From: an uncultured Pseudomonadota bacterium
GTDB taxonomy: Bacteria > Pseudomonadota > Gammaproteobacteria > Steroidobacterales > Steroidobacteraceae
NCBI GenBank assembly: GCA_903879335.1
Contig: CAIRLC010000004.1
Coordinates: 1 to 51,097 of the forward strand
Direction of reading: 5' to 3'
Length of the DNA: 51,097 bases
Positions 841-37,129 of the stretch are shown here, piece by piece; position 1 is the first letter of the stretch, and every line of letters starts with the position of its first letter. A program made the translations under genes and the position numbers. The notes under the pieces are model-generated. The model was given only the letters and a program-made list of their open reading frames with translations. It had not been told where the DNA came from and did not search any database.

Positions 841-3800
841 ATGAACACTCTCAAGCGAACTATGCGCGAGGCCCGTGCGGCTGCAATTATCGCGACGACA
901 ATACTATTTGGGTCGTCAGCGCTCGCTGGTCCCGGATTCGTCCCTGGCTATAGTCGCGGCGCCAATCCTGCCGGCGCTCCGGACGTCATCGAGCAAACCT
1001 TTTACGCCAACAGTCCACTTGGACTGCGGCCGGATCCCATCATCGGGGCCGCCGGTGCGCCGATCGATACGGGCGCTGCGCTGCGTAAGTTCATCGACGT
1101 GTTGCCGAGTGTTCCAGGCCTTGCGCCGACGACGAACGCCGGTAGCGGTTCGATGGCGCTGACGGGTTCGAAGTACATTCCACTCGCGGTGCCTAAAGTC
1201 TGGCCGACGGATTCTGCGGATTACTACCACCTTGCGATGGTGGAGTATCAGGAGCAAATGCACTCGGATTTGCCTAAAGCGTCGGTGTTGCGCGGCTATG
1301 TGCAGATCGAAGAGCCGGGTGAGTCACCGGCCCCTGCGGGCTCGCATCACGTCGCCTTGTTCTATCCGAACGGGACCGCCATGCAGTTGCCGGATGCTAA
1401 CGGTGTACTGCAGCCGGTCTATGCCTACGATCGCCCGCACTATCTCGGACCCATGATCGTCGCCACCAAAAATCATCCCACTCGAATCAAGTACTCCAAC
1501 CTGTTGCCGGTGGGTGATGCGACCGGCCTCGACCAAGATGGTCACCCGCTCGGCAATGGTGTTGCCGGTCGTAACGGTGATTTGCCGTTGCCGGTCGATA
1601 AGACCTTGGCTAGCGCCAACCTGCAGCAAAATCGGGTTGACGTGCATTTGCACGGTGGTCTGACGCCGTGGATCTCGGACGGCAGTCCGCACCAGTGGAC
1701 GATTCCCGTGGGTGATAGCCGTTACGGGTATTTGTCCGACATCGCGGTCACCACCGCTGGCTCTGGCTACAGTCCACATCCCACCATCACCATCGATCCG
1801 CCGCAGAGCGTCGCGACGGCGACGGCGGTCATCGATCCGGCGACCACCGGCGTCTCATACCTCAAACTCACGAACCCAGGCGCATTTTTCAGCGCCAGCG
1901 CGCCGCCGGCGGTGACGATCACGCCGCCGACCTTGCCTGCCAGCGCGCAGGCGACGGCGACGGGTACCGCGGCCGCCTTGAAGGTGGCGAGCCTCACCGT
2001 CACGAATGGCGGTTCCTCCTATGGCGTTGCCCCACCGGTGACCATTTCAGCGCCCACCGGTGTGGCCGCGACTGCGACCGCTACCTCTGCATTGAAGACG
2101 ACCGGAACCGCTGCGCAGAGAACCCAGTTGGCCGGTTTGACGCTCACGGCCGCCGGTAGCCTCTATGACCCTGCGCTGCCACCGGTGGTGACGATCCCAG
2201 CGCCGCAGGCCGCCGTCGATGCGACGGCAACCTTGGGTGTTGTGAATGGTTCCTTGTCTTCGGTGACCGTCAATCGGAACTTTGGTTATTACGGCACGGC
2301 GCCGACGTTGACCGTGAGCACGCCACCGGCGGCCTCTAATGCGACGGCAAGTGCGGCCATTACGCCGACGGGCACAGTCTCAGGCGTGACCCTCACCAAC
2401 ACCTCGAACTGGGGTTACTGGGCGCAACCCACCGTGACGCTCTCAGCGCCGCCTGCGGCGGTCTCGGCAGGTGCGGTCACGGCGACGATGTCAGGCGGCT
2501 CGTTGAGCGCATTGTCGATGGCGACTCCAGCGAACTTTGGTTACTTCACCGCGCCAACTGTGAACATTCCCGCGCCGCCACCGGCCGTGTCGGCGGGCAC
2601 GGTGACCGCCACGCTGACGGGGGCTGCCGTGAGCGCGCTGACCATGAGCACCCCGGCCAACTTCGGCTATTTGACGCCTCCAACGGTCACCATCTCGCCG
2701 CCCTCGTTGGCAGTGACCGCCACGGCCAGCGCAGCTGGCGTCAACGCCGCCTCGGGTACGTTGACCGGCGTGACCCTGGGCGCGAGCGGAGCCGCTTACA
2801 CGGCCGCTCCAACCGTAAGCATTGCAGCCCCGCCAGCGGCTGTGCCCGCTTCAGCCACGGCCGTGGTCACGGGGGGCGTGGTCACCGGTCTTACGTTGAC
2901 CAACGGCGGTTACGGTTATTGGAGTCCTGCTACAGTCACCATTGGTGCAGCGCCAGCGGCAGGTGCACGTGCCACGGTCAACACGACCGTGGCGACTGCG
3001 ACCGGAGCCCTGACGACTACCGTCTCAAACGGCGGCTCGGGCTACACGGCGGCGCAGAGTGCTACGGCGTTGACGATCTCCGCGCCACCGGCAGCGGTCA
3101 ACGCCGGTCTCACGTCAGCGACGACGACAACGTCGACATTGAATGCGTCGGGCGGTGTGGCCTCTATCGGATTCAACGCGTCGAACTTCGGCTATTGGAC
3201 CGCACCGACCGTGACGATCGCGGTCCCTTCGGGTACGTTTACGCGCGCTACGGCGACGGTCACCACCTTAAGAGCCGTGACCATCACCAACGCCGGTGCG
3301 GGCTACACCACGGCGCCAGCCGTGACTTTCACCGGCACACCGACGTCAGGAACGGCCTGGACCGCGACCGCGACGATCTCCGCGGGCAAGGTGACAGCCA
3401 TCACCATTTCCGGCACCGGCGTTTACGCAACGGCGCCGACCTTGGCGATTGCGGCACCGGCTAACGTCCGTGCAACCGCTGTGGCTACGATTTCCCAAGG
3501 CAAGCTCACGGGCTTCATGATTACGAACGCCGGCGCCGGATACACCACGGCCCCGGTGGTGACGCTGAGCGCGGGTCCCGTGGCCGGTACCCAGGCCGCA
3601 GGCACCATCACCGTGACCAACGGCGCGGTCAGCGGAATCACGCTGACGAATGCCGGTCGAGGCTATAGCCCGACGACCCCGCCCACGGTCACAGTGCCGG
3701 CGCCGTTGACGGGCGGCGGTACGCAGGCCACCGCGACGACTACGGTCGCAAATGGTCGTATCACCGGGCTCACGATCACTGCCGGTGGCAGTGGTTACAC

Positions 3801-6800
3801 CTCGACGCCTACGGTCACGTTCTCGGCGCCAACCGCCGGCACGCAGGCCACGGCGACGGCGACCTACAGCGCGGGTGCGGTGACTGCTGTGACGATGACC
3901 AGTGCAGGATCGGGTTACGATCCCACCGCTGCTGTCCCTGCGATCACCATCGCCGCGCCAACCGGTGGTGGCACGCCGGCCACCGCGATCGCGACGGTTG
4001 CGAATGGCGTGCTGACCGGCTTCACGATCACCAATCCGGGGTCTGGCTATGCGAGCCCGCCGACGGTCACCGTATCGGCGCCAACGCCGAGCGTGGCGGC
4101 AACGGCAGTGGCTAACGTCTCTGCAGGCGTGCTCACCGGATTTGCCATCACGAATGCAGGCAGCAATTATTTGTCTGCGCCTACGGTGACCCTGTCCTCG
4201 GGGCCGACCGCGAGCGCAACAGCCACGGCGACAGCGACACTGGATGGCAACGGTAAAGTCACCGGGTTCCGCCTGGTCAATGCCGGTGCTAACTACGTGA
4301 CCGCACCGACGGTCACCGTCTCGGCCGCAGCGCCATCGGTCCGCGCGACGGTTACAGCGACCATCGGAAACGGCGTCCTTGGCGTGTCAATCACCAACCG
4401 GGGATCCGGATATTCGGCGGTGAGCCCACCGACGATCTCCGGCTTGCCGCTCTCCACGCCGAGCATTGCAGCCACGGCAACGGCTACGGTCTCGGCCGCT
4501 GGTGCGATCAGCGGGGTTACACTCACGAATGCGGGGCAGGGCTACATTACAGCGCCCACCGTCACGATCGCGGATCCTCCACGGCCACGCACTGCAACAG
4601 CGACATCGGCATTCTTGAACGGCGTCGTCACGTCGTTGAGCATCGTCGACGCGGGTTGGGGCTATGTGGCTGCACCGACCGTGACGGTTGGACCGGCTTA
4701 CTCGCCCAACCCAGCCACGGCCACCGCCGTTGTGGCGTCCGATGGCACGATTGCGGGTTTCAATCTGACGTCACCGGGTGGTGGCTATGACGCGACTCAC
4801 CCACCCAGTGTCTCAATTGCCTGGCCCGCCCGTGCGAGGCAGGCGACCGCCGCGCTGACCGTGACCGCGGGTGCGCTGACCGGAGTCTCGCTCACTGATC
4901 ATGGCGGTGGCTACTTAGCCACGCCGAATGTGACGGTGACGGACGCCGGATCCGGCCGCAACGGGGTCGTGCACGCGCTGGCCGTGATGCCTACCGGACC
5001 CTCGTTCCGCCAAGTTCCGGATATGGTGGGTGCGGGTGATGCGGGCACGCGGCCCGCCTTCTATACCGCGCCGACGGTGGGTGAGGGCACGCTGTATTAC
5101 ACGAATAACCAGTCGTCACGTCTGATGTGGTACCACGACCATACGTCAGGGATCACGCGTCTGAACGTCTATGAGGGTATGGCGGCTCCGTACTTGCTGC
5201 GTGATCCTGCGGTAGACCCGGCCTTGCCGGCGTTGCACACGACTGCGGGTACCTTTGACGGGCTGATCCCGGAAGAAATCATTCCGCTGATCATTCAGGA
5301 CAAGACCTTCGTACCGAAGGACGTCGCCTTGCAGGACGCGCGTTGGGATACCAGCCACTGGGGCCAGTACGGCGACTTGTGGTTCCCGCACGTTTACGAG
5401 ACGAATCAGAACCCAGCGATGCTGGCCTCCGCGAGTGCCGCTGGTCGTTGGGACTGGGGCCCGTGGTTCGCGGTCGTGTATCCGTCGATGTATGCGCTGC
5501 CCTCTGGTCGTTACGGTGATGAAACCACGACGCCGGAAGCGTACGAGGACTCAGCGCTCGTCAACGGTGTCGCGTTTCCAACGGTCAGCGTTGAACCGCG
5601 GGCTTACCGCTTCTATATCCTCAACGCGGCGAACGATCGCTTCTTGAATCTCGGGATTTACAAAGCGGATGCGCTGCAGGTTCGTCATGGCGATCCACGG
5701 GACGCAGGCGACGTCGTGGGTGTCGAAATCAAGGCGGGGCCTGCGGGTGGTGATCAGCCGGGCAACTACACCGGCAATCCGTTCTCCAATCTGCCTGGTC
5801 TCACGCCTTGGCCGACGGATTTGAATTGGAAGCCACTGCCGTCCGAAATGGGCCCGTCGATGATTCAGACCGGGAATGAAGGCGGTCTGCTGCCATTCTG
5901 GGTCGAGCAACCAGCAGTACCGGTGAGTTTCGATTACAACCGTCGCAGCATCACGGTGCTGAACGTCTCGCAAGACAATGACGTGACGCAGGCCTGCTAT
6001 CCGAAGTGCCACGGTCTGTATGTGGGCCCGGCTATGCGTGCGGATGTGGTGATCGACTTCGCGCCCTACGCGGGTCAAACGCTCATTCTGTACAACGACA
6101 ATCCCGCACCGAACCCCGGCTTCGATCCGCGTATCGATTACTTCACGGATAATGATCCGGGTAATGCCGGTAATTATGCGACGGGCGGCGCGCCGAGCAC
6201 GATCGCGGGTTATGGCCCGAATACGCGCACCGTCATGCAAATCAAGGTGGCGGCTCAAACCAGCACGCCGATCGACTATGTCACCGCGCTGAATGCGGGC
6301 GCCTACAATCCAACGGCATTGGGCTTTGGTCATTCCATCGGCAATCCGAAAGGCACGCCAGGCGTGATGCAGAAGGTGTATGCCGATACCCAAGACGCCC
6401 CGATCGTTGGTGCCGAGGCATACAACGTGGTTGGCATGATGGATCAGAAACCCATCGCAACCTTCGCGACGAACTACATCGACCAATATGCCGATAAGTT
6501 CTTGGCATCAGCGAATGAACCGGCGTTCTTCGTCACCAACCCGGGTCCATTGACCTTGGTCGGCGTGCTCTTATCAGGCAACACCACGTCGACGGGCGGT
6601 GCAAGCGGCATCGGTACCGGCACGGCGCCCGTTAATGGCGGCGCAGGAACGGGCTACTTGACTGATCCGACGGTGCGTATTGACCCACCGGGATGTGATC
6701 CGGTCACCAGTGGCCGCGTGGCCTGCCACCAAGCCGTGGCCGTCGCTCACGCCCAAAAAGGCCAGGTGATGTCCATCGACTTGATTGATCCGGGCGCCGG

Positions 6801-8802
6801 CTACACCGAAGTGCCGAAGGTGGCGATCATTTCGAACGGTCAAGTCGTGACCCTATCCACGACCAACGTTGGTGCGGGATACACGGTTGGATCGACGGTG
6901 CCGGTCACCATTGATCCACCGACGCCCTGTGTAGCGCCTGCAGTGTGCGTACAAGCCACAGCCTCGGCCACGGTCAACGCAGACGGCAGCTTGGCGCTCT
7001 TGCTCGGCACCGGCGGTACGGGTTACACGACAGCGCCGAACGTGACGATCGCGCCACCACCGCAGGTGTCGGCGACGGGCACCAGCACCGTGGCCGCAGG
7101 CTCGGTGTCTGCGATTACCGTGTCGACGCCGGGTAGTTATGCCCCGAGTAGTCCGGTGACGGTCAGTGTCGCTGCACCGCCTGCGGCGCAGACGGCAGGC
7201 ATCACTGCCGCGGTCGTTCCGTTGGCCGGTGGGGGCTTCTGCTGCACGCTCTCGATCACGAATCCTGGGCGTGGCTATACCGCAGGTTTCACGGCGACGA
7301 TTACCGACCCGACAAATCCTGCCAATACCTCGGCCCAAGTGACTGCGACGGTCACGAATGGCCAGGTGACGAGCGTGCTGTTGACGGGTTACGGGCTGAC
7401 CTACGGTGGCGCGCAGTTGACGGTGCCTGCGCCGCCAGCGGCGGTACCGGCGACGGCCACAGCGCTTGCTGATGGCACGGGTTCCCTGACATCGGCGAAT
7501 GTGACAATCACGAATCCAGGCACGGGCTACACGACGGCGCCGGCGGTAACATTCAGCGGCGGTACGCCTGCGGTTGCACAGGCCGGTATCGGTGGCGGCG
7601 GTGGCTCCGGCGCCTTTGCCGTCGCGATCGGCTCAACGACGCGGGCCTTTGCGGTTGCCGCGGCCGTGCCGAACTCCGGTGTACCGTTGGTGTCGGGCTC
7701 GACGCTCGCCAACCAAACCATCACCTTGCCGCAGTTCAGTTGCTCGGCCGGTAGCACGACGTGTCCGACGATCGATTGGACGAACGTGTCGGTGGGCCGA
7801 CTGATGAATCCGGCCATCCAGGAATTGTTCGAGCCGTTCTACGGTCGAATGAATGCAACGCTGGGCATCGAAATGCCGAATTCGTCGCTGCAAGTGCAGA
7901 CCACGCTGCCGCTCAACTATGTGGATCCGGCAACCGAGAAAATGGAAGCGGGTACGGTTCAGATGTGGAAGGTCACGCATAACGGCGTCGACACCCATCC
8001 GGTCCATTTCCACCTCGTGAATGTGCAAGTGATCAACCGCGTGGGTTGGGATGGCACGGTTAAGCCGCCCGAGGATAACGAGTACGGCTGGCGCGAGACG
8101 GTGACGATGAATCCGCTCGAGGATATCTTTGTGGTCATGCGGGCGGCGATGCCGGTGTCTCCATTCGGTATCGACCACAGCTATCGTGCGGAGGATCCCT
8201 CGCAGCCACTGGGTGTGAACCTTGGCTTCACGCAGTTCTCAGTGGAAGGCCTGAACGGTACGCCGACGAATGGCTTCCCGGTCGCTGCGTCGGCCTACGG
8301 CGCCAATGCGCCGGGGTTGGCGGGTCCGACGACCGTCGTGAACGGAATGGAAGAGTACGACAACGAGTACGTCTGGCACTGTCACATCCTCGGTCACGAG
8401 GAGAATGACTTCATGCGGGCAATCTCGGTGGCCGTACAGACCCAAGCCCCGCCGGCACCGACGGGCTTTACGGCCAGCCAGGCGAGCGCCAATGGTCCGG
8501 TGAGCTTCACATGGGTCGACCCGACGCCTTACAGCGCGCAGACGAGTTACGGCAACCCCCAGAATGAGCTGGGCTTCAAGGTCGAGCGATCACTGGATAG
8601 CGGCACGACGTGGGTTTTGGCGGCCTCGGCGCCAGCCAATGCCACGACGGCAGTCGACATCGCGCCGAGCGGTCGCAGCGGCCAGGTCGTCCAATACCGC
8701 GTCTATGGCTACAACGTCGCGAGTGCGAACCGCTTGTTGAATGCGGATCCGAACTCGACTGGCATGGGCGCGACAGCCACCACCAGTGTGACGCTGAAGT
8801 AA
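841..8802 (+). CDS. Giant secreted multicopper oxidase (bilirubin oxidase/CotA-like) with two internal repeat arrays
   Basis: A 2,653-residue exported protein. Residues 1-29 form a signal peptide with SPase I site ALA before G30. All four copper motifs of a three-domain multicopper oxidase are present: HLHGG (H269, H271), WYHDH (H1432, H1434), HPVHFH (H2386, H2389, H2391) and HCHILGHEENDFM (H2513, C2514, H2515, H2519). The family couples one-electron oxidation of a substrate (phenols, bilirubin, metal ions) to reduction of O2 to water. Normally the first two motifs lie a few tens of residues apart; here about 1,160 residues separate them because a 26-unit repeat array is inserted after the HQWTIP segment and before the VPDM segment. 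A second array separates domain 2 (about 1440-1900) from domain 3. The position homologous to the type-1 axial Met is F2524. An FN3-like stretch ends the protein (about 2538-2653). The frame is uninterrupted. Substrate is unknown; metal oxidation is possible but unproven. Confidence 0.9.
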   Translation: MNTLKRTMREARAAAIIATTILFGSSALAGPGFVPGYSRGANPAGAPDVIEQTFYANSPLGLRPDPIIGAAGAPIDTGAALRKFIDVLPSVPGLAPTTNAGSGSMALTGSKYIPLAVPKVWPTDSADYYHLAMVEYQEQMHSDLPKASVLRGYVQIEEPGESPAPAGSHHVALFYPNGTAMQLPDANGVLQPVYAYDRPHYLGPMIVATKNHPTRIKYSNLLPVGDATGLDQDGHPLGNGVAGRNGDLPLPVDKTLASANLQQNRVDVHLHGGLTPWISDGSPHQWTIPVGDSRYGYLSDIAVTTAGSGYSPHPTITIDPPQSVATATAVIDPATTGVSYLKLTNPGAFFSASAPPAVTITPPTLPASAQATATGTAAALKVASLTVTNGGSSYGVAPPVTISAPTGVAATATATSALKTTGTAAQRTQLAGLTLTAAGSLYDPALPPVVTIPAPQAAVDATATLGVVNGSLSSVTVNRNFGYYGTAPTLTVSTPPAASNATASAAITPTGTVSGVTLTNTSNWGYWAQPTVTLSAPPAAVSAGAVTATMSGGSLSALSMATPANFGYFTAPTVNIPAPPPAVSAGTVTATLTGAAVSALTMSTPANFGYLTPPTVTISPPSLAVTATASAAGVNAASGTLTGVTLGASGAAYTAAPTVSIAAPPAAVPASATAVVTGGVVTGLTLTNGGYGYWSPATVTIGAAPAAGARATVNTTVATATGALTTTVSNGGSGYTAAQSATALTISAPPAAVNAGLTSATTTTSTLNASGGVASIGFNASNFGYWTAPTVTIAVPSGTFTRATATVTTLRAVTITNAGAGYTTAPAVTFTGTPTSGTAWTATATISAGKVTAITISGTGVYATAPTLAIAAPANVRATAVATISQGKLTGFMITNAGAGYTTAPVVTLSAGPVAGTQAAGTITVTNGAVSGITLTNAGRGYSPTTPPTVTVPAPLTGGGTQATATTTVANGRITGLTITAGGSGYTSTPTVTFSAPTAGTQATATATYSAGAVTAVTMTSAGSGYDPTAAVPAITIAAPTGGGTPATAIATVANGVLTGFTITNPGSGYASPPTVTVSAPTPSVAATAVANVSAGVLTGFAITNAGSNYLSAPTVTLSSGPTASATATATATLDGNGKVTGFRLVNAGANYVTAPTVTVSAAAPSVRATVTATIGNGVLGVSITNRGSGYSAVSPPTISGLPLSTPSIAATATATVSAAGAISGVTLTNAGQGYITAPTVTIADPPRPRTATATSAFLNGVVTSLSIVDAGWGYVAAPTVTVGPAYSPNPATATAVVASDGTIAGFNLTSPGGGYDATHPPSVSIAWPARARQATAALTVTAGALTGVSLTDHGGGYLATPNVTVTDAGSGRNGVVHALAVMPTGPSFRQVPDMVGAGDAGTRPAFYTAPTVGEGTLYYTNNQSSRLMWYHDHTSGITRLNVYEGMAAPYLLRDPAVDPALPALHTTAGTFDGLIPEEIIPLIIQDKTFVPKDVALQDARWDTSHWGQYGDLWFPHVYETNQNPAMLASASAAGRWDWGPWFAVVYPSMYALPSGRYGDETTTPEAYEDSALVNGVAFPTVSVEPRAYRFYILNAANDRFLNLGIYKADALQVRHGDPRDAGDVVGVEIKAGPAGGDQPGNYTGNPFSNLPGLTPWPTDLNWKPLPSEMGPSMIQTGNEGGLLPFWVEQPAVPVSFDYNRRSITVLNVSQDNDVTQACYPKCHGLYVGPAMRADVVIDFAPYAGQTLILYNDNPAPNPGFDPRIDYFTDNDPGNAGNYATGGAPSTIAGYGPNTRTVMQIKVAAQTSTPIDYVTALNAGAYNPTALGFGHSIGNPKGTPGVMQKVYADTQDAPIVGAEAYNVVGMMDQKPIATFATNYIDQYADKFLASANEPAFFVTNPGPLTLVGVLLSGNTTSTGGASGIGTGTAPVNGGAGTGYLTDPTVRIDPPGCDPVTSGRVACHQAVAVAHAQKGQVMSIDLIDPGAGYTEVPKVAIISNGQVVTLSTTNVGAGYTVGSTVPVTIDPPTPCVAPAVCVQATASATVNADGSLALLLGTGGTGYTTAPNVTIAPPPQVSATGTSTVAAGSVSAITVSTPGSYAPSSPVTVSVAAPPAAQTAGITAAVVPLAGGGFCCTLSITNPGRGYTAGFTATITDPTNPANTSAQVTATVTNGQVTSVLLTGYGLTYGGAQLTVPAPPAAVPATATALADGTGSLTSANVTITNPGTGYTTAPAVTFSGGTPAVAQAGIGGGGGSGAFAVAIGSTTRAFAVAAAVPNSGVPLVSGSTLANQTITLPQFSCSAGSTTCPTIDWTNVSVGRLMNPAIQELFEPFYGRMNATLGIEMPNSSLQVQTTLPLNYVDPATEKMEAGTVQMWKVTHNGVDTHPVHFHLVNVQVINRVGWDGTVKPPEDNEYGWRETVTMNPLEDIFVVMRAAMPVSPFGIDHSYRAEDPSQPLGVNLGFTQFSVEGLNGTPTNGFPVAASAYGANAPGLAGPTTVVNGMEEYDNEYVWHCHILGHEENDFMRAISVAVQTQAPPAPTGFTASQASANGPVSFTWVDPTPYSAQTSYGNPQNELGFKVERSLDSGTTWVLAASAPANATTAVDIAPSGRSGQVVQYRVYGYNVASANRLLNADPNSTGMGATATTSVTLK
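1732..4998 (+). repeat. Array of 26 degenerate protein repeats (about 41 residues each) inside cupredoxin domain 1
   Basis: Translated residues about 298-1386 fall into 26 units. Each unit has a strand like VTLTNAG, a turn G-x-GY, then xxAPTVTI, a Pro/Ala-rich link, and an ATATATV-x(n)-G-x-VTG strand. The composition is Ala, Thr, Val, Gly and Pro with no Cys. Units differ at most positions, so this is an old, diverged protein array rather than a recent DNA expansion. A subfamily of neighbouring units (about 6, 7, 8 and 12) carries NFGYW/NFGYF in place of GSGYT. The periodicity suggests a beta-rich, possibly solenoid-like or beads-on-string fold; that is an inference. Confidence 0.9.
6601..7569 (+). 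repeat. Second array of about 8 related repeats between cupredoxin domains 2 and 3
   Basis: Residues about 1921-2243 show the same G-x-GYTxxPxVTI pattern (AGTGYLTDPTV, GAGYTEVPKV, GAGYTVGSTV, GTGYTTAPNV, GRGYTAGFTA, GTGYTTAPAV and two weaker units). Unlike the first array it contains Cys residues: two near the start, two in the CVAPAVC segment, and an adjacent CC pair in unit 5. It is followed by a Gly-rich linker and then the domain 3 sequence. Confidence 0.85.
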
Positions 8803-9192: not shown

Positions 9193-9783
9193 ATGCGCTC
9201 ACGTTCATCTTTACTACTCCTCGGTGTTGCTCTGCTTGGCCTTGGCGCTTGTGCGACGGGTCCGAACGTGCGCACGAACGTGGATGCTAGCGTGGACTTC
9301 GGCGGGTTCAGAACCTTCGGTTTTGTCGAACAGGCCGGGACCGATCGCGGTGAATACACCACCTTAGTGACTCGCGCCTTGCGGGCGGGCGTGGCTGCTG
9401 AGATGGAAAAGCGGGGCTACCACGCGGCTGAAAATCCGGATCTCCTGATTAACTTCCAGGGGCATGCGGAAGATAAGCAGTCCATTGAGGGGATGAATGT
9501 TGGCGCCAACTTCCATCACGGCTTTGGCTTTGGTGGGCGTTTCGGCGGCGGCGATCTGACGTGCTGGCGCGATGTGCGTGACGTCACTCAGGGTACGCTG
9601 AATATCGACATCATTGATCGGGCCAAGAAGGTGACCGTGTGGGAAGGCACCTTGGCGCGCGAACTGACGAATGACGAAAAGAAGGACATCGTGAAGTCCT
9701 TGCCGGCCATCGCTGGGACCGTGATGAGTGCCTATCCCTACGTGGCCGGTCAGACTGCGCCGGTCGTGCCGTCTAAGCACTGA
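9193..9783 (+). CDS. DUF4136-type outer-membrane lipoprotein
   Basis: A 196-residue lipoprotein. The signal peptide is followed by lipobox LGAC with the lipidated Cys at residue 20. The mature part begins with a segment of the form VDASVDFGGFRTFGFVE, the usual DUF4136 opening, and continues with a conserved DLLINFQG region and a C-terminal half with WEGTLARELTND. The residue after the lipid Cys is Ala, so outer-membrane sorting by Lol is expected. Start choice: ATG at 9193 has GGAG at 9183-9186 six bases upstream; the in-frame TTG at 9181 would add four residues and lies at the ribosome binding site, so it is rejected. Function of the family is unknown. It is the last gene of the block that separates kdsB from the phosphatase gene. 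Confidence 0.8.
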   Translation: MRSRSSLLLLGVALLGLGACATGPNVRTNVDASVDFGGFRTFGFVEQAGTDRGEYTTLVTRALRAGVAAEMEKRGYHAAENPDLLINFQGHAEDKQSIEGMNVGANFHHGFGFGGRFGGGDLTCWRDVRDVTQGTLNIDIIDRAKKVTVWEGTLARELTNDEKKDIVKSLPAIAGTVMSAYPYVAGQTAPVVPSKH

Positions 9784-9800
9784 TCGGCTTGATGGGCAGG

Positions 9801-9820
9801 GTCGGGGCCTGAGCCCCGAC
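9801..9820 (+). terminator. GC hairpin downstream of the DUF4136 gene
   Basis: Perfect arms GTCGGGGC (9801-9808) and GCCCCGAC (9813-9820) with loop CTGA lie 17 bases after the stop codon. No T-run follows, so it is a candidate transcript end rather than a textbook intrinsic terminator. Confidence 0.45.
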
Positions 9821-9915
9821 TCGATGACCGGTCGGCTTCTGAGTCTGCGCCGGCGTCGATTATCCCGCCTGATATGTCTGCTGAGCCGTCCTACCATTGC
9901 AGTCCAGCACAAGTT

Positions 9916-9983
9916 TAAATTGACTTTCGCGTCCGCGCGTTCAGTCTCCCATGCAATATGGGTATGCGTATAAATTGACTTTC
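9916..9983 (+). repeat. Pair of 13-bp direct repeats TAAATTGACTTTC upstream of the phosphatase gene
   Basis: Exact copies of TAAATTGACTTTC lie at 9916-9928 and 9971-9983, 55 bases apart, in a locally AT-rich non-coding stretch. Each contains TTGACT, which resembles a -35 element, but neither has a good -10 at 16-18 bases. They may be binding sites for a regulator or a duplicated promoter fragment. The rest of 9784-10054 shows only the hairpin after the DUF4136 gene. Confidence 0.5.
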
Positions 9984-10054
9984 TTGGCGTCATCATCAGA
10001 CGGCTCGACGCCGGCCATCAAGACAGAAAGCAAATTAATTTCAAGAGGTTGCCT

Positions 10055-21741: not shown

Positions 21742-21769
21742 TTGCCAAGACCCAAGGACTGTATATACT
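21742..21769 (+). promoter_or_regulatory. lexA promoter
   Basis: TTGCCA (21742-21747) and TATACT (21764-21769) are 16 bases apart. The -10 element lies inside the first LexA box, so LexA binding would block polymerase directly. Confidence 0.65.
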
Positions 21770-21793
21770 CACAGCAGCTGTATATTCATACAG
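21759..21793 (+). promoter_or_regulatory. Two tandem LexA (SOS) boxes
   Basis: CTGTATATACTCACAG (21759-21774) and CTGTATATTCATACAG (21778-21793) both fit CTGT-N8-ACAG, the gammaproteobacterial SOS box. The second overlaps the lexA ribosome binding site CAGGAG (21791-21796). They should control the whole lexA-imuA-imuB-dnaE2 unit. Confidence 0.92.
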
Positions 21794-21804
21794 GAGTTGT
21801 CATC

Positions 21805-22425
21805 ATGAGCGATCTTACCCCCCGTCAACGCCAAATTCTGGATTTCATCCGCGAACAGGTTGAAGAATCCGGCATGCCACCGACCCGCGCCGAGATCGCC
21901 TTGGCGCTCGGTTTTAAATCAGCCAACGCGGCTGAGGACCACCTGAAAGCCCTGAAGCGTAAGGGTGTCATCGACTTAGTGCCCGGAACTTCCCGTGGCA
22001 TCCAGCTGAAAGACACGATGCGTGAGCAAGTGGGCTTGCCGCTGATTGGCCGCGTAGCGGCGGGTCGGCCGATTCTGGCTGAGGAGCACATTGAAGCCCG
22101 CTACCAGGTTGATCCCAGCCTGTTTCACCCGCAGCCGCACTACTTACTGCGGGTCCAGGGCATGTCCATGAAGGACATCGGCATCATGGATGGCGATCTG
22201 GTCGCCGTGCATCGCACCCCAGAAGTCCGTAACCGGCAGATCGTGGTGGCGCGTCTTGAGAACGAAGTCACCGTCAAGCGCTACCGGCAGGAAGGTCCTG
22301 TGGCGTGGTTGCTGCCTGAGAACGCCGATTTCGAGCCGATCCGCGTCGACCTGCGTGAGCAGTCCATGCTCATTGAGGGGATTGTCGTCGGCGTGCTGCG
22401 GCGTGGGGATCGAGTCCTCCAGTAA
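21805..22425 (+). CDS. lexA: LexA repressor
   Basis: Repressor of the SOS regulon that cleaves itself when RecA is activated by DNA damage. The 206-residue protein has an N-terminal winged helix ([15 protein letters not shown] start; [11 protein letters not shown] recognition region), the cleavage site A86-G87 (VAAGRPI), and the Ser-Lys dyad S121 (GMSMKD) and K158 (VTVKRY), 37 residues apart as in the Escherichia coli protein. ATG at 21805 follows CAGGAG; the upstream in-frame start at 21742 would extend through the operator and is rejected. Two LexA boxes precede it, and imuA follows after 29 bases, so the repressor and the mutasome are induced together. Whether the genome has another lexA cannot be seen here. 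Confidence 0.96.
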
Positions 22426-22454
22426 TCGGTTGAGCCGGGTGAGCGTGAGCCGTC

Positions 22455-23090
22455 ATGAAGGGATCTTTGGACGCGATCCTGCAGGACGCTGGGGTCTGGC
22501 GGGGTCTTGATCCCGCACTGACGGCTCGCACGCCACGCTGCCCGAGTGGGTGGCCCCGCCTAGATGCCGTGTTGGCGGGCGGGGGATGGCCGCTTGGGAC
22601 GCTGATTGAGTTGCTGCTGCCTGCACATGGTCTTGGTGAATTGCGGCTGTTGGTGCCGGCATTGCGGCGCTTAGCCGTGGCCACCCCCGGTGAGACGCCC
22701 CGTTGGTTGGTTTGGGTCTCACCTCCGCATGAGCCCTATCCGCCAGCGCTGGCTCAATCGGGTCTGCATCCTGCAGGCATGCTCCGCATCGATGCGCCAC
22801 AAGCGGCAGATCGTCTCTGGGCGGTTGAGCAGGTGCTGCGTTCCGGGAGTGCGGCCGTCGTGCTGTGTTGGCTTGATGCGGTGGATGATCGTTGGCTGCG
22901 GCGCTTGAAGCTGGCCGCAGAGGGGCAGTCTGTGTTGTTGGTCGCTCTACGCCCTAGCGCTCGCCGCGGTACGCACTCGCCAGCCGCATTGCGAATTGAA
23001 TTTGTACCCGCGACACAGGGGCTCGACCTGGTGTTATTGAAAGAGCGGGGGCGCGCGCCCACGCGTATCTGCGACGTGTTCGGCGAGTAA
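22455..23090 (+). CDS. imuA: ImuA, translesion synthesis accessory protein
   Basis: A 211-residue RecA/SulA-like protein of the DNA-damage mutagenesis cassette. The core GWPRLDAVLAGGGWPLGTLIELLLP corresponds to the start of the RecA-like fold, but a clear Walker A GxxxxGKT is missing: the corresponding segment reads PAHGLGELRLL. The C-terminal half carries LRPSARRGTHSPAALRIEF and LVLLKERGRAP, typical of ImuA. It works with ImuB and DnaE2 and is thought to assist assembly of the error-prone polymerase. It lies 29 bases after lexA and 3 bases before imuB. No promoter of its own was seen, so it depends on the SOS-controlled lexA promoter. Confidence 0.88.
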   Translation: MKGSLDAILQDAGVWRGLDPALTARTPRCPSGWPRLDAVLAGGGWPLGTLIELLLPAHGLGELRLLVPALRRLAVATPGETPRWLVWVSPPHEPYPPALAQSGLHPAGMLRIDAPQAADRLWAVEQVLRSGSAAVVLCWLDAVDDRWLRRLKLAAEGQSVLLVALRPSARRGTHSPAALRIEFVPATQGLDLVLLKERGRAPTRICDVFGE

Positions 23091-23093
23091 TGC

Positions 23094-24698
23094 ATGGCTG
23101 TACGTCCACGCTTACGTCGGTTGGTTGCTCCGCAACGCGGTCAGCATCAGACCCTTGACCTGTTTGCGCCGGCGCAGAGCAACCCGGTTGGCGTACAGAC
23201 TCAACGGCAGCCATCCACTGAGCTGCGTTCACGCTTACAGCCCGCTCAGCTATGGCTCGCGCTGCGTTTTCCGACCTTGCCGCTGTTGGCAGTGCCGGAT
23301 CCTGATGGGATACAGGCGGTGGTGGAGGGCGCGGCGGGCCGACAGTCGGTGTTGTCGGTCACCCCGGCCGCTCAACAACTCGGTGTACAGGTGGGTCTTG
23401 CGAGAGCAGCGGCAGAGATCCGCGTGCCGCAGCTCATCGTCTATGAGCGGCGTACGGATCTCGAGCAACAGGCGCTGCGCGCTCGAGCCCGCGCGGCTTT
23501 TGCCTTCACGCCGTTTGTCAGCATCGAAGCCCCCGACATGCTATTGCTCGAAATTCAGGGCAGCTTGCAGCTCTTTGGTGGCCTTGAGGCCCTGTTAGCG
23601 CGCGCGCAGCAGACGCTGAGCACATCACTCATTCCCGCGCTGTATGCCGTTGCGCCAACGGTGCGTGCCGCAGTGTGGTTGGCGCGAGGTCGTGCCGGAT
23701 CCTGTGTCACCTCGGTCGCCGAACTGCCAAGTATGTTGGCGCGACTACCCCTCGCCGTGACCGGTTTTGATGCCACTGTGCAAGCCACCTGCGAACGCCT
23801 AGGGGTGACGACGCTGGGTGAACTCATGCGCTTACCCCGGGATGGCGTCGCGCGCCGACTGACCCCTGAGGTGCCACAGCGATTAGATGAGGCGCTCGGG
23901 CGAGTCTCCCAACCGCGCCGGCGTCATGTATTGCCCGAACGATTTATGGACAGCGTGGATTTGCCAGCGGATGGGGTCTCTACCGCGGCGTTGCAGCCGT
24001 GGTGTGAGCGCTTGCTGGCGGCGCAGGAGCGATTTCTGGTGCAACGTGATTCGGCGGTGGCTCAGTGTCGCTTTCGTTTCAAACATCGCGCCGGGCATCC
24101 GCCTTCCCTGTTGGTGCTCGAACGCTCGTGGCCGAGCGGCCGCGCTGGCGAATGGCAGTTGCTCTTGGCAGAGCGGTTAGCGCGTTTTGTCTTGCCGGCG
24201 GCGGTCATTGCGATCAGCCTGCGCTCAGGTCCAGTCCTGCCAGCCGTACCCTTGGATGAGGGACTCGTGGGCGGTGGCCGCGAGGGGCGAGCGGCCGCTG
24301 CGCGCTTGCTAGATCGATTGCGCGCGCGCTTAGGTGAGGATGCCGTACACGGCGTATGTCTGGTGCCGGAACACCGGCCTGAGTCTGCCTTTCGGCGGGT
24401 GCGGCCGACCTTGCCTGCAGCAACGCTGAATGACGAGACCTGGCCCGGTGCCCCGCGACCCCTGTGGTTGATGACGCAACCTGAAGCCTTGCGTTGCCGA
24501 GGTGACGCGCCGTGGTATGGCGGACCCCTGAAGTTGTTGTCCGGGCCGGAACGTATCGAAAGCGGCTGGTGGAGCGGGCAGTCCGTGACCCGCGATTACT
24601 ACGTGGTGCGGGCGGCGAGCGGTGCGCGCCTGTGGGTTTACCGTGAACGCGGTGCTGACACGCAGAGCGGCTGGTTTTTACATGGCGTGTTTGCCTGA
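23094..24698 (+). CDS. imuB: ImuB, Y-family polymerase-like mutasome hub
   Basis: A 534-residue catalytically inactive Y-family homologue that links DnaE2 to the beta clamp. The fold begins near residue 50 (LWLALRFPTLPLLAV), followed by the regions QLGVQVGLARAAA and AFTPFVSIEAPDMLLLEIQGSLQLFGG; the acidic residues that bind catalytic metal in active Y-family enzymes are not conserved. An N-terminal extension of about 48 residues precedes the fold and contains QTLDLF (residues 19-24), which fits the sliding-clamp-binding hexapeptide. In other ImuB proteins the clamp motif lies after the polymerase-like core. The ATG is three bases after the imuA stop and no later start has a better ribosome binding site. 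The C-terminus (GPLKLLSGPERIESGWW) matches the conserved ImuB end. Confidence 0.92.
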   Translation: MAVRPRLRRLVAPQRGQHQTLDLFAPAQSNPVGVQTQRQPSTELRSRLQPAQLWLALRFPTLPLLAVPDPDGIQAVVEGAAGRQSVLSVTPAAQQLGVQVGLARAAAEIRVPQLIVYERRTDLEQQALRARARAAFAFTPFVSIEAPDMLLLEIQGSLQLFGGLEALLARAQQTLSTSLIPALYAVAPTVRAAVWLARGRAGSCVTSVAELPSMLARLPLAVTGFDATVQATCERLGVTTLGELMRLPRDGVARRLTPEVPQRLDEALGRVSQPRRRHVLPERFMDSVDLPADGVSTAALQPWCERLLAAQERFLVQRDSAVAQCRFRFKHRAGHPPSLLVLERSWPSGRAGEWQLLLAERLARFVLPAAVIAISLRSGPVLPAVPLDEGLVGGGREGRAAAARLLDRLRARLGEDAVHGVCLVPEHRPESAFRRVRPTLPAATLNDETWPGAPRPLWLMTQPEALRCRGDAPWYGGPLKLLSGPERIESGWWSGQSVTRDYYVVRAASGARLWVYRERGADTQSGWFLHGVFA

Positions 24699-24704
24699 GC
24701 AGTC

Positions 24705-27700
24705 ATGACGGTTGCCTACGCAGAGTTGCATGCGGTGTCGAACTTTACGTTTCTGCGCGGGGCCTCGCATCCGGATGAGCTGATCGAACAGGCCGATACG
24801 CTCGGCTATCGGGCACTCGCGCTGACGGATGAGTGCAGTTTTGCCGGCATTGTGCGCGCTCATGTCGCCGCCCGCGGGCGTGCGGTGCGATTGGTGGTGG
24901 GTACCGAACTGCAGCCCACGGATGGCCCGAAACTGGTGCTGCTGGCGACCGATCGTGCCGCCTATGGACGGTTGTGTGCGCTGATCACGGCGGCACGTCG
25001 AGCGGCCCCCAAAGGCAGCTATCGACTGACTCGAGCGATGTTGAACACCACCGACCTCACCGGCTGTCTTGCGCTGTGGCCGGCGCCCTTAGAGGCGAGC
25101 GATACAGACGCGGCGTGGTTCAAGGAGCGTTTTGACCGTGACGCCGTGGTCGGCATCGAATTGCTGGCCGATGGTCGCGATCGGGAACGCCTCACGCGCC
25201 TGCAGGCGCTGGCGCAGCGTTTTGGGCTTGCCGTCACAGCCAGTGGCGACGTGCATTTACACGTGCGCGAGCGACAACGATTACAGGATGTGCTGACCGC
25301 GATCCGGATCGGGGCACCGCTTGAGGTCGCCGGTCATGCGCTACTGCCGAACGCGGAACGCTGCCTGCGTGACCTCGCGACCTTGGCGCGCCGTTATCCG
25401 CGCGCCTTGCTCGATCAATCCGTGCAACTGGCCGAGCGCTGCACATTCTCATTGGAAGAGCTGCGCTATGAGTATCCCGAAGAGTTAGTGCCCGCAGGGC
25501 ATACGCCTTCGACTTGGCTGGCGGCACTGACCCAGCAGGGACTGCAGGTGCGTTGGCCGTCGGGGGCTCCAGCCTCCGTGCGTGCCTTGGTTCAGCGCGA
25601 GTTACAGCTCATCGCCGAACTGCGTTACGAGCCCTTTTTTTTGACGGTTGAGGATCTCGTGCGCTTTGCCCGAAGTCGCGGCATTTTGTGTCAAGGTCGT
25701 GGTTCAGCGGCCAATTCAGCGGTCTGCTATTGCCTCGGCATTACCGAAGTTGATCCGATGCGGATGGCGCTCCTGTTCGAACGCTTCGTCTCTAAAGAGC
25801 GGGACGAGCCACCCGATATTGATGTCGACTTTGAACATGAGCGGCGTGAAGAGGTTATTCAATACCTCTACGAGAAGTATGGTCGCCATCGAGCCGCATT
25901 GGCGGCCACTGTGATTTCCTATCGACCCAAAAGCGCCTTACGTGATGTGGGTCGTGCGCTTGGGATTGATCCGACCACGATTGAGCGACTGTCTAAAGGC
26001 GTGCGGTGGTGGCATGGCAGCACGATTGAAGAAGCGCCGCTACAAGAGCGAGGCCTCGATCCGCGCTCGCCACGGTTGGCGCTCTTGCTCGAATTGGCGC
26101 GCGAGTTGATGGGCTTTCCGCGTCATCTATCGCAGCACGTGGGCGGCTTTGTGATTGCGCGCGATACCTTGGCGACGCTGGTGCCGGTGGAAAACGCGGC
26201 CATGGAAGGTCGTACCGTCATCCAATGGGATAAGGATGATCTGGAGGATTTAGGACTGCTCAAAGTCGATGTGCTGGCGCTCGGCATGTTGACCGCGATC
26301 CGCAAAGCCTTGGCGATGGTGGCCCATAAGCGCGGTGAGCCTTTTGGTATGGCGGATGTGCCGGCCGAGGATCGCACCACCTACGACATGATTTGTCGCG
26401 CAGATACCTTGGGCGTGTTCCAGATTGAGTCGCGCGCCCAGATGGCGATGTTGCCGCGATTGCGGCCGCGTAATTTCTATGACCTCGTGATTGAAGTGGC
26501 CATTATTCGGCCAGGGCCCATTCAAGGCGGCATGGTGCATCCTTATTTGCGCAGACGGGCGGGCTTAGAGCCGGTGGTGTATCCGAGTGACGCCGTACGC
26601 TCGGTGCTGGAGCGCACGCTGGGTGTGCCGATTTTCCAGGAGCAGGTGATGCAGTTGGCGGTGGTCGCTGCTGGATTTACACCGGGCGAGTCGGATCAGT
26701 TGCGCCGCGCGATGGCGGCCTGGAAGCGCAAGGGTGGGCTTGGGCACTTTGAGGCCAGACTGATCGGCGGCATGCGAGAGCGCGGCTATAGCGACGACTT
26801 TGCGCAAGCGATCTACCGGCAAATGTTGGGCTTTGGTGAGTATGGATTTCCGCAGTCGCATGCCGCGAGTTTCGCGCTGTTGGTGTATGTCTCGGCGTGG
26901 TTGAAATGTCATGAGCCTGCCGCGTTCACCGCTGCATTGCTGAACAGTCAGCCGATGGGGTTCTATGCGCCGGCACAACTGGTGCGTGATGCGCGCGAAC
27001 ATGGAGTCACCGTTTTGCCGGCTGATGTGAACGCGAGCGACGCGGACGCCACACTTGAGGGGGCTCATGGCTCAGCATTACGCCTCGGCTTGCGGGGGAT
27101 ACGCGGTCTCAAGGCGGAGGTGATGGAACGTGTCGTCGCGATGCGTGCGCAGGGGTCGTACACCTCGGTTCAGGAGTTGGCTGAGCGGGCCACCTTGACT
27201 CAGTCAGACTTGGCGACACTGGCGGCCGGCGGTGCCTTGGCGTCCTTGGCCGGACACCGTCACCGCGCAGTCTGGCAGGCGAGCGGCGTGATGGCACCGA
27301 CGCCCTTGTTCCCCTCGCCACGGGTCGCGGAAGGCGTGCCCTTGCTGCGGGCGCCCACCGAGGGCGAAGACATCGTCGCCGACTATCGCGAACTCGGCCT
27401 GACCCTGGGGCGCCATCCGCTGGCCTTGCTGCGGGGCCGCTTAGAGGCCCGTGGCTTGCTCACGGCCGCTGAGTTGCGAGCGTTGCCGGCAGGGATGCGC
27501 GCCCGCACGGCGGGTCTCGTGCTGGTGCGGCAGCGTCCGGGCACCGCATCGGGCGTGACCTTCGTGACGGTTGAGGATGAAACCGGGGTCACCAACCTGA
27601 TCATCTGGCGCAAGCTGGCGGAGCGTCACCGACAGGTGGTGTATGAGTCGCAGCTCTTGGCCGTGGAGGGCATTGTGCAGCGTGAGGGTGAGGTGTTGCA

Positions 27701-27776
27701 CCTCGTCGCCGAGCGCTTAGCCGATCGCAGCGCTTGGTTGGGCCGATTGGTGACCCGCTCACGTGACTTCCATTGA
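24705..27776 (+). CDS. dnaE2: Error-prone DNA polymerase III alpha subunit DnaE2 (ImuC)
   Basis: A 1,023-residue C-family polymerase that performs mutagenic translesion synthesis with ImuA and ImuB. The N-terminal PHP domain starts YAELHAVSNFTFLRGASHPDELIEQA; the polymerase active site has PPDIDVDFEHERREEVIQY (D371, D373 as catalytic residues), with the QGRGSAANS and FPQSHAASFA motifs also present. The C-terminus has the OB-fold region (GVTFVTVEDETGVTNLIIW) but lacks the clamp motif and tau-binding tail of DnaE1, and the length is that of DnaE2. Six bases separate it from imuB. It is the last gene of the SOS unit: the next ORF is 78 bases away and unrelated. Confidence 0.96.
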   Translation: MTVAYAELHAVSNFTFLRGASHPDELIEQADTLGYRALALTDECSFAGIVRAHVAARGRAVRLVVGTELQPTDGPKLVLLATDRAAYGRLCALITAARRAAPKGSYRLTRAMLNTTDLTGCLALWPAPLEASDTDAAWFKERFDRDAVVGIELLADGRDRERLTRLQALAQRFGLAVTASGDVHLHVRERQRLQDVLTAIRIGAPLEVAGHALLPNAERCLRDLATLARRYPRALLDQSVQLAERCTFSLEELRYEYPEELVPAGHTPSTWLAALTQQGLQVRWPSGAPASVRALVQRELQLIAELRYEPFFLTVEDLVRFARSRGILCQGRGSAANSAVCYCLGITEVDPMRMALLFERFVSKERDEPPDIDVDFEHERREEVIQYLYEKYGRHRAALAATVISYRPKSALRDVGRALGIDPTTIERLSKGVRWWHGSTIEEAPLQERGLDPRSPRLALLLELARELMGFPRHLSQHVGGFVIARDTLATLVPVENAAMEGRTVIQWDKDDLEDLGLLKVDVLALGMLTAIRKALAMVAHKRGEPFGMADVPAEDRTTYDMICRADTLGVFQIESRAQMAMLPRLRPRNFYDLVIEVAIIRPGPIQGGMVHPYLRRRAGLEPVVYPSDAVRSVLERTLGVPIFQEQVMQLAVVAAGFTPGESDQLRRAMAAWKRKGGLGHFEARLIGGMRERGYSDDFAQAIYRQMLGFGEYGFPQSHAASFALLVYVSAWLKCHEPAAFTAALLNSQPMGFYAPAQLVRDAREHGVTVLPADVNASDADATLEGAHGSALRLGLRGIRGLKAEVMERVVAMRAQGSYTSVQELAERATLTQSDLATLAAGGALASLAGHRHRAVWQASGVMAPTPLFPSPRVAEGVPLLRAPTEGEDIVADYRELGLTLGRHPLALLRGRLEARGLLTAAELRALPAGMRARTAGLVLVRQRPGTASGVTFVTVEDETGVTNLIIWRKLAERHRQVVYESQLLAVEGIVQREGEVLHLVAERLADRSAWLGRLVTRSRDFH

Positions 27777-27854: not shown

Positions 27855-28649
27855 ATGCCTAGATTGCTGTTCACGGCCTTGCCGGTCGCGCTCATGAGCC
27901 TCTGTGCCGGCGCGGCCGATGCGCTCATGCTTAATCCACCCGTCATCGTGAATCCGGTCGATACGCTCATCGCGCGTCATGTGGAGGCCCGGGGCGGCTC
28001 GGAGCGACTGCGTGCGATCCAAAGTCTGCAGCGTAAAGGTCACCTGGTCATCCCGGGCATGGGTATGCGTCTGGAGCTGTCGGAGTGGCAGGCTCGAGGC
28101 TGTCACTACCGTCAGGATGTGACCCTGCAAGGGCTGACGGCCATCGAGGCCACCGATGGCCGTGATGGCTGGCAGGTGTCACCTTTTGAAGGCCGTAAGG
28201 ATGCCGCCCATTTGTCTGAGGATGAGATCAAGGATCTGATCTTGAAGTCGGATTTTGAGTTCCCCTTCGTGAACTACAAAACCAAAGGACACCACGTCAC
28301 GCTGGGCGCCCGTGAGGATATCGACGGCACACCGGCGGATGCTTTGAACGTGCATCTGGCGGATGGTAACGAGGCCACGTATTGGATCGATCCGGATACC
28401 CACATGGTGATCCGCGCCCTGATCCGCGAGACGGTGCGCGGTGCCGAGGATGTCACCGAAATCGATTACGGCGAATATCAACAAGTCGGCGGTGTCTGGA
28501 TGCCCATGACCGAGGAAATCGGCGGCAAGGGCAGCGATCCGGCGCGTCGGCAAAAACTGGTCTTTGAGTCGGCGCTCGTCAATCCGGCCGTTGCCGCAAC
28601 GCTGTACGCCTTCCCCACGACTGCCCCTGCCGCTGGGAGCCACCCATGA
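27855..28649 (+). CDS. Secreted LolA-like/outer-membrane lipoprotein-sorting-type protein
   Basis: A 264-residue exported protein. Signal peptide of about 22 residues (LLFTALPVALMSLCAGAADA). The mature part opens with VDTLIARHVEARGGSERLRAIQSLQRKGHL, the usual start of periplasmic proteins with the LolA/LppX-like half-barrel, and contains the segment ATDGRDGWQVSPFEG. It is not the housekeeping LolA, which is at 46446-47069. Start choice: ATG at 27855 precedes the signal peptide; the frame is open to 27816 but that adds a non-signal stretch. It overlaps the next gene, a large BNR-repeat protein, by four bases (ATGA), so the two are translated together and probably act in one process. Function unknown. 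Confidence 0.75.
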   Translation: MPRLLFTALPVALMSLCAGAADALMLNPPVIVNPVDTLIARHVEARGGSERLRAIQSLQRKGHLVIPGMGMRLELSEWQARGCHYRQDVTLQGLTAIEATDGRDGWQVSPFEGRKDAAHLSEDEIKDLILKSDFEFPFVNYKTKGHHVTLGAREDIDGTPADALNVHLADGNEATYWIDPDTHMVIRALIRETVRGAEDVTEIDYGEYQQVGGVWMPMTEEIGGKGSDPARRQKLVFESALVNPAVAATLYAFPTTAPAAGSHP

Positions 28650-37107: not shown

Positions 37108-37129
37108 GGGTTTCCAAGCGCCAGGGGCG

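Follow-up and report, generated by a model that had tools for sequence, protein, structure and literature searches.

A very large multicopper oxidase, in which the first copper-binding domain is interrupted by more than 1,000 residues of tandem repeat, is encoded at positions 841–8802 of the 51,097-nucleotide contig CAIRLC010000004.1, which is analysed here in full (hereafter, the window). The window represents an entire contig (C4) of a metagenome-assembled genome (MAG) of 3.14 Mb, which comprises 46 contigs and is 96.8% complete. The protein is of the OmpB/MofA type; both MofA and OmpB have long been regarded as candidates for the redox chemistry of manganese and iron outside the cell, and their large non-catalytic parts are little explained. 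We consider it fairly probable that this gene specifies an exported oxidase which has gained a block of repeats in a loop of domain 1, that the two halves of the domain fold together around the block, and that the block forms a near-uncharged arm outside the cell. A literature search, covering titles and the beginnings of abstracts, returned no mention of such an insertion or of the repeat in an oxidase, which does not establish its absence from print.

Domain architecture of the oxidase

The reading frame is uninterrupted by stop codons and has the following features.

841..8802 (+), whole gene: 2,653-residue OmpB/MofA-type multicopper oxidase with two repeat arrays (open frame, family searches, tree)
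841..927 (+), Sec-type signal peptide, residues 1–29, ending SSALA (judged by eye from the translation only)
928..1719 (+), cupredoxin domain 1, first part, with N-terminal extension, residues 30–293, ending HQWTIPVGDS (homology to CotA and array-free relatives)
1645..1659 (+), HLHGG, residues 269–273, two trinuclear copper histidines (motif search)
residues 284–289 and 1392–1395 (+), HQWTIP and VPDM respectively (motif search)
1720..5001 (+), insertion 1, residues 294–1387, 1,094 residues; repeat units at residues 308–1375, nucleotides 1762–4965
5002..5220 (+), cupredoxin domain 1, second part, from SFRQVPDM to approximately residue 1460 (homology to CotA and array-free relatives)
5128..5142 (+), WYHDH, residues 1430–1434, two trinuclear copper histidines (motif search)
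5221..6240 (+), cupredoxin domain 2, ends approximate (CotA alignment; NCBIfam matches below cut-off)
6649..7599 (+), insertion 2, a second array of the array-1 repeat, between domains 2 and 3 (7 profile hits, approximately residues 1937–2253)
7738..8460 (+), cupredoxin domain 3, ends approximate; HPVHFH at 7996–8013, HCHILGHE at 8377–8400; axial Phe
8461..8799 (+), C-terminal extension, FN3-like by eye (translation)

The copper-binding motifs HxH, HxH, HxxHxH and HCHxxxH were found in that order, and homology to solved members spans all three domains. By sequence, the closest solved structures are CotA-type laccases and bilirubin oxidases; alignments to solved structures cover approximately residues 250–286, 1409–1458, 1545–1608, 1722–1767, 2360–2425 and 2497–2531, and so flank both of the large gaps. 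The CotA alignment contains six positive-scoring stretches, distributed to both sides of both arrays, and a seventh that scores negative. Among family models, Pfam Cu-oxidase_2 matches residues 2365–2436 above its cut-off and Cu-oxidase_3 matches residues 1418–1456 below it, while the NCBIfam matches (PhsA, CueO and FtsP) are partial and each far under cut-off; Pfam FN3 has no match in the protein at an expectation value (E) of 0.1. Judged from its sequence, the protein is a three-domain, laccase-type multicopper oxidase in which the copper ligands are kept.

The scale of the interruption is evident from the distance between the starts of HLHGG and YHDH, which is 1,162 residues here and 62–92 residues in array-free frames possessing both motifs. 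In the sister protein, L051, the corresponding loop reads HQWTVPVGDT-GAHYKKGQ-SFQNVPDM, placing 8 residues where the window protein has residues 294–1387. Array 1 consists of 26 units of approximately 41 residues, the last of them partial, as cut by hand-set anchors; a repeat profile detects 24 of the 26, and counts made by profile are approximate, the rebuilt profile having 53 positions against a unit of about 41 residues. Ala, Thr, Val, Gly, Ser and Pro together make up 77% of the array, and Asp, Glu, Lys and Arg only 3.2% (D+E 1.2%, K+R 2.0%). The units are strongly diverged in DNA, such that the longest exact direct repeat in the 3,282 nt of array 1 is only 15 bp, and Tandem Repeats Finder lists no array within the gene.

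A first-pass annotation, made from the letters of the window without database searches, had already described a multicopper oxidase with a first domain split by about 1,090 residues, 26 repeats between HQWTIP and VPDM, and intact copper ligands. Each of these points agrees with the present analysis, down to the exact coordinates of HLHGG and WYHDH. The second array, at approximately residues 1937–2253, was absent from that description; the occurrence of the repeat at further positions in relatives and its likeness to phage virion proteins lay beyond what the letters by themselves could reveal. The first-pass annotation also named an assembly artefact as a possible undoing of its interpretation; we rule this out on account of the 15-bp longest repeat, the empty Tandem Repeats Finder result and the arrays that fill the same loop in three proteins from two other MAGs.

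Relatives and phylogeny

With the 399-residue core as query, 17 of 296 genomes searched within the order proved to contain relatives, the window's own genome included. The best matches outside that genome belong to a genome of the same genus, G209, which has two array-bearing genes in tandem (2,654 and 2,241 codons; A and B) and two array-free genes. Across the genus, any match is found in 5 of 15 genomes and an array-type core in two, these being G209 and the window's own genome, which also encodes two repeat-free paralogues, each about 1,460 residues long. The window protein and G209 A, from two species, are 69–81% identical in their cores.

In a scan of genome contigs at large, the best 80 of 475 relatives amount to 77 distinct loci. 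A total of 85 frames were tabulated and, after removal of one truncated copy and two duplicates, 82 retained. Six loci have no frame in the table: L049 (G209 A again), L060, L072, L081 and L088 (with an ordinary short loop), and L092 (which ends before the loop). Of the 82 frames, 35 have at least two repeat hits and 47 have one or none. Hits of this number lie between the YHDH motif of domain 1 and the HCH motif of domain 3 in 32 frames, before domain 1 in 8, and in the domain-1 loop (site 1) in only four, namely the window protein, G209 A, G209 B and L050, from three MAGs; no repeats occur inside domain 1 in the other 78 frames examined.

In the tree of 82 cores, the four proteins with a site-1 array form one clade (100/100), to which L051 is sister (98/94); L051 has no site-1 array and has 4 repeat hits between domains. 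Array clade and L051 fall together within a group of 30 rows (99/90) that contains proteins of Ferriphaselus R-1 and Sphaerotilus. Since the four site-1 proteins make a single clade, the simplest reading is that the site-1 array was gained once. By its position in this tree the window protein is a member of the OmpB/MofA family, to which it is tied via the Ferriphaselus R-1 (L055) and Sphaerotilus rows, the reference Leptothrix MofA and G. sulfurreducens OmpB not being in the tree. The homologue search that the first-pass annotation had proposed thus turned up site-1 arrays in three further proteins as well as array-free relatives, and its comparison with MofA proved apt, both from the placement in the tree and from the mofB and mofC genes that lie near array-bearing homologues (below).

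All four site-1 array proteins retain the ten ligand histidines and the cysteine. The axial position of the type 1 copper site is Phe in 45 of the 82 frames, the window protein among them, Met in 28 and Leu in 3, the motif not being found in 6. The own-genome paralogues, on contigs C34 and C36 (L009 and L010), have Leu at this position, and given this difference the three MofA-type oxidases of the genome may differ in redox potential.

Other relatives merit description in their own right. On contig C51 of G209, a single mof cluster contains the array-bearing oxidase genes L042 and L049 in tandem, in which 16 and 25 repeat hits fall at site 1. A Dehalococcoidia MAG contains an open frame of 4,057 codons (L107:4445-16615) with 39 repeat-profile hits ahead of oxidase domain 1, and the Methanoperedens (archaeal) oxidases L098 and L100 have window-type repeats both before domain 1 and between the domain 1 and domain 3 motifs. 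Large MofA-like frames of 1,179 (cut by a contig end) to 2,514 codons were found at L060, L072, L081 and L088, in betaproteobacterial, Gallionellaceae and other proteobacterial MAGs; these have lost the domain-1 copper histidines, HLHGG being replaced by RLVGG, HLVGG or HLIGG, and YHDH by YQDR or IQDR, and loss of activity therefore seems to happen in the family. Since L081 and the intact L058 share a MAG, one genome may harbour both active and dead MofA paralogues. No multicopper oxidase relative was found in the scan of viral contigs. A plasmid-borne gene was also considered and rejected, the 29 records from the plasmid collection all falling below 60% identity (best, 34.5%).

Selection and register

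Purifying selection was assessed by the method of Nei and Gojobori, as the ratio of nonsynonymous to synonymous divergence (omega). Between the window gene and G209 A, where synonymous divergence (dS) is 1.0–1.7 and hence near saturation, omega is 0.11 for the first part of domain 1, 0.18 for its second part with domain 2, and 0.14 for domain 3, compared with 0.34 for each array and 0.23 for the C-terminus. Between G209 A and B (dS 0.4–0.8), the corresponding core values are 0.37, 0.37 and 0.45. Eight array comparisons gave omega of 0.32–0.71, and array values exceed those of the core by a factor of 1.5 to 3. The units also correspond individually: between the window protein and G209 A the best match of a unit is the one in register for 18 of 26 units, and identity falls from 0.56 for pairs in register to 0.44 for pairs out of it. 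Hence, the array is maintained in register between species under purifying selection that is weaker than that on the core, as far as a dS near saturation allows. Selection, as anticipated from the intact ligands by the first-pass annotation, is seen on both halves of domain 1 and more weakly on the array.

These values bear on the foremost alternative, that the arrays are near-neutral passengers which grow by duplication and are tolerated in the exposed loops of an exported protein. We think this unlikely, while granting that it accommodates the elevated omega of the arrays, the occurrence of the repeat at three positions in the family (in 8, 4 and 32 of 82 frames, as above) and the fact that G209 B is nine or ten units shorter than A. 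It is harder to reconcile with an omega of no more than 0.71 in any of the eight comparisons, with 26 units kept in register across two species with cores as diverged as those here, or with the cost of some 1,400 extra residues in every molecule.

Kinship of the repeat with phage virion proteins

Profile searches against PHROG relate the repeat to structural proteins of phage particles. Array 1 matches 17 families at E ≤ 0.1, led by phrog_701 (virion structural, 3.8e-76) and phrog_460 (head closure, 1.7e-75) and including baseplate wedge and tail fibre families, and array 2 matches 11. A 401-residue piece of repeat matches 20 families at the same threshold, and none when reversed or shuffled; the repeats of oxidases L107 and L108 match mostly the same families as this piece. 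In viral contigs, the repeat was found at 7 loci with 33–43% identity. When the model of six units (below) was compared with predicted viral structures using Foldseek, 30 matches were obtained at E ≤ 1e-3, the first being a structural protein of Synechococcus phage S-ShM2 (5.2e-11), and a cyanophage neck protein was matched with 43% identity over 86 columns. Against the phage link, a tblastn search of 251 residues of repeat, run with low-complexity filtering, had no hit at 1e-5 in an annotated phage collection, a null result that in our view is outweighed by the PHROG, viral-contig and Foldseek matches. Matches to BURRH proteins in the PDB (two chains, E 8e-4), obtained with the repeat profile A6, were not recovered with a single-unit profile and were judged to be chance.

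Within the order the repeat seems to be rare: a unit profile applied to 97 genomes matched only the window's own, with all 22 matches inside the window gene, in a sample that excluded G209 (which has the repeat), with a profile built from the window gene's own units and with some genomes only partly scored.

The phage connection raises a second alternative, that the arrays bind a specific target (polysaccharide, mineral or another cell), as repeats on phage surfaces may, making the oxidase an adhesin-enzyme fusion. In its favour, the repeat is shared with protein families of the phage head, neck, baseplate and tail, and OmpB of Geobacter has been suggested to adhere to Fe(III) oxides, perhaps by way of its FN3 domain (PMC5566968). 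The low charge of the array, at 1.2% acidic and 2.0% basic residues, speaks against direct binding of minerals, oxides or metals, and the variable number of units fits a spacer; we regard specific binding as somewhat less likely even than passenger arrays. The same composition disfavours a metal-binding array working through acidic groups. An arm that binds a surface, polymer or mineral, or that holds the enzyme away from the cell, had been suggested in the first-pass annotation; mineral or metal binding by acidic groups is disfavoured, and the holding of the enzyme at a distance is retained as conjecture. We know of no tested function for the phage repeat.

Structure prediction

Domain 1 and array of L050 (1,130 residues, 68-row alignment) were modelled with AlphaFold2 to stand in for the window protein. 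The first half of domain 1 is confident, with 10-residue blocks scoring 81–96 over residues 81–200, and the strands of the second half ahead of YHDH score 80–89, with 85 for the final block. Scores this high suggest that strands 870 residues away may have found their partners in domain 1, but the block with YHDH and most of the array score lower (Discussion). A protrusion that leaves and re-enters the domain at nearly one point, which the first-pass annotation required of the repeats, is thus a conjecture that this model does not bear out. In the alignment used (A3), the VPDM segment of the array-free rows appears to have been set against the start of the array, an error that may have weakened the model. 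Six units of the window array, modelled separately, show in most units a short strand and a 7/9-residue hairpin.

A dead or mis-assembled gene, in which the insertion has destroyed the oxidase or is itself artefactual, is very improbable: the insertion does lie between catalytic motifs, and the short-looped L060, L072, L081 and L088 lack domain-1 copper histidines, but the ligands are all kept here, core omega is only 0.11–0.18, and the site is filled in proteins of three MAGs, with no long exact repeat.

Gene neighbourhood

Clusters of mofA, mofB and mofC are described, with Ferriphaselus R-1 named as a carrier, by He et al. 2017 (PMC5566968); L055 was taken to be the Ferriphaselus R-1 gene named there. 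The genes of the three other array-bearing enzymes are clustered with mofB (FKBP) and mofC (cytochrome c). After the L050 gene come a mofB-type FKBP isomerase and a protein sharing 41% identity with the cytochrome c protein found close to the Ferriphaselus R-1 homologue; in G209, mofB and mofC precede both array genes and a second mofB comes after them. In the window's own genome, the sole mofC match adjoins the C34 paralogue. Pieces of a mofB-like FKBP gene, the middle missing, lie at facing contig ends in this genome, at the end of C19 and the start of C22 (L128 and L130).

Upstream of the oxidase gene is a cytidylyltransferase (kdsB-like), and downstream a minus-strand frame at 9364–9996 with no Pfam match is followed by RNase E and other housekeeping genes. 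Pfam scans of 20 other frames of the window recognised no phage gene. Elsewhere in the window, family hits identify consecutive genes for LexA, a SulA-like protein, IMS (ImuB-like) and DNA polymerase III alpha at 21742–27776, an arrangement like that of SOS mutasome cassettes. A large Sortilin-Vps10/BNR-repeat protein is encoded fairly near gspE- and gspD-like type II secretion genes (28646–31855 and 33434–37200).

Discussion

The favoured reading, of an oxidase that folds around a repeat block gained in its first domain, can be set out as a series of steps. The ancestor would already have had the repeat between domains 2 and 3, and the site-1 block would then have been gained once, an order which is the parsimonious one. 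The gained block consists of beta-rich repeats of about 41 residues, of the kind found in tailed-phage virions, and lies between the two histidine pairs that domain 1 contributes to the trinuclear copper site. The oxidase would be exported and loaded with copper and, with a complete ligand set, is expected from its family to be active; the halves of domain 1 would fold as one around the insertion. As elsewhere in the family, a metal or phenol would be oxidised at the type 1 site and oxygen reduced at the trinuclear site. With less support, the nearly uncharged, beta-rich array may form a long arm that tethers the oxidase in the extracellular matrix or spaces it from the cell surface.

Several results weigh against this reading. 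The window comparison suffers from the near saturation of dS, and omega between G209 A and B is 0.54 for array 1, 0.71 for array 2 and 0.87 for the C-terminus, higher paralogue values indicating that the arrays are only loosely constrained. The distance between motifs differs among the four array proteins (731, 866, 1160 and 1162 residues), and hence an exact length is not needed. In the L050 model, the YHDH block scores 61, most of the array below 50, and the predicted template-modelling score (pTM) is 0.45; Foldseek aligned only about 172 of its columns to CotA. The six-repeat model has a mean predicted local distance difference test score of 63.2 and a pTM of 0.43, and among PDB structures Foldseek found nothing convincing (best E 1.8); with so weak a model and no similar solved structure, the 'arm' is a guess. 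Template-modelling scores of the viral Foldseek matches are 0.17–0.37 by query length (among the 50 shown), many with large root-mean-square deviations, and as Foldseek also scores sequence, these matches back kinship more than shape. Queries with mofB, mofC and sco (tblastn) match nothing within the 51-kb window. To our knowledge, no activity is established for any member of the site-1 array clade.

A broader proposal, which we put forward only speculatively and think more likely wrong than right, is that one and the same repeat serves tailed phages and metal oxidases outside the cell as a module for grafting into loops of unrelated folds, such as neck and baseplate proteins and here a catalytic copper domain, without breaking them, and that oxidases of iron- and manganese-cycling microbes build arms from it at three positions; in the present clade the arm would emerge directly from the trinuclear copper domain and could also affect access to the active site. 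Part of the extra mass of MofA/OmpB proteins, in 35 of 82 frames, is a repeat also present in phage virions, and the oxidase offers an example of a module common to virus particles and a bacterial surface enzyme. The clade of the window protein also amounts to a natural experiment: more than 1,000 residues interrupt a domain from which four of the eight histidines of the trinuclear site come, and this domain is nonetheless conserved; the role of the repeat is therefore testable by deletion.

Comparison with known systems

The tailed-phage virion proteins represented by phrog_701 and phrog_19630 (virion structural), phrog_460 (head closure), phrog_708 and phrog_719 (baseplate wedge) and phrog_5342 (tail fibre) resemble the oxidase in their repeats, as both arrays give profile hits along much of their length. 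There too, the repeat forms part of larger structural proteins. The difference is that the window repeat belongs to a cellular oxidase whose neighbourhood has no recognised phage gene, and that identity stands at 33–43% to viral contigs and 15–43% in the structure matches shown.

CotA and fungal bilirubin oxidase share with the window protein the order of copper motifs and alignable stretches in all three domains, but comprise only 513 and 534–538 residues respectively and have no arrays; from the alignment, the filled loop corresponds approximately to CotA residues 123–129, and the axial residue is Met in CotA and Phe in the window protein. The MofA/OmpB family itself, represented by Leptothrix MofA, Geobacter OmpB and the Ferriphaselus R-1 homologue, is the closest comparison. 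Core sequence, large size and, by eye, an export signal are shared with the window protein; several relatives likewise have repeats between domains 2 and 3 (6 hits in Sphaerotilus L066), and the axial type 1 residue is Phe in L055, L066 and the window protein alike. The window protein departs from this family in the repeats within its first domain, which the 78 other frames lack, and in the position of its gene away from any mof genes.

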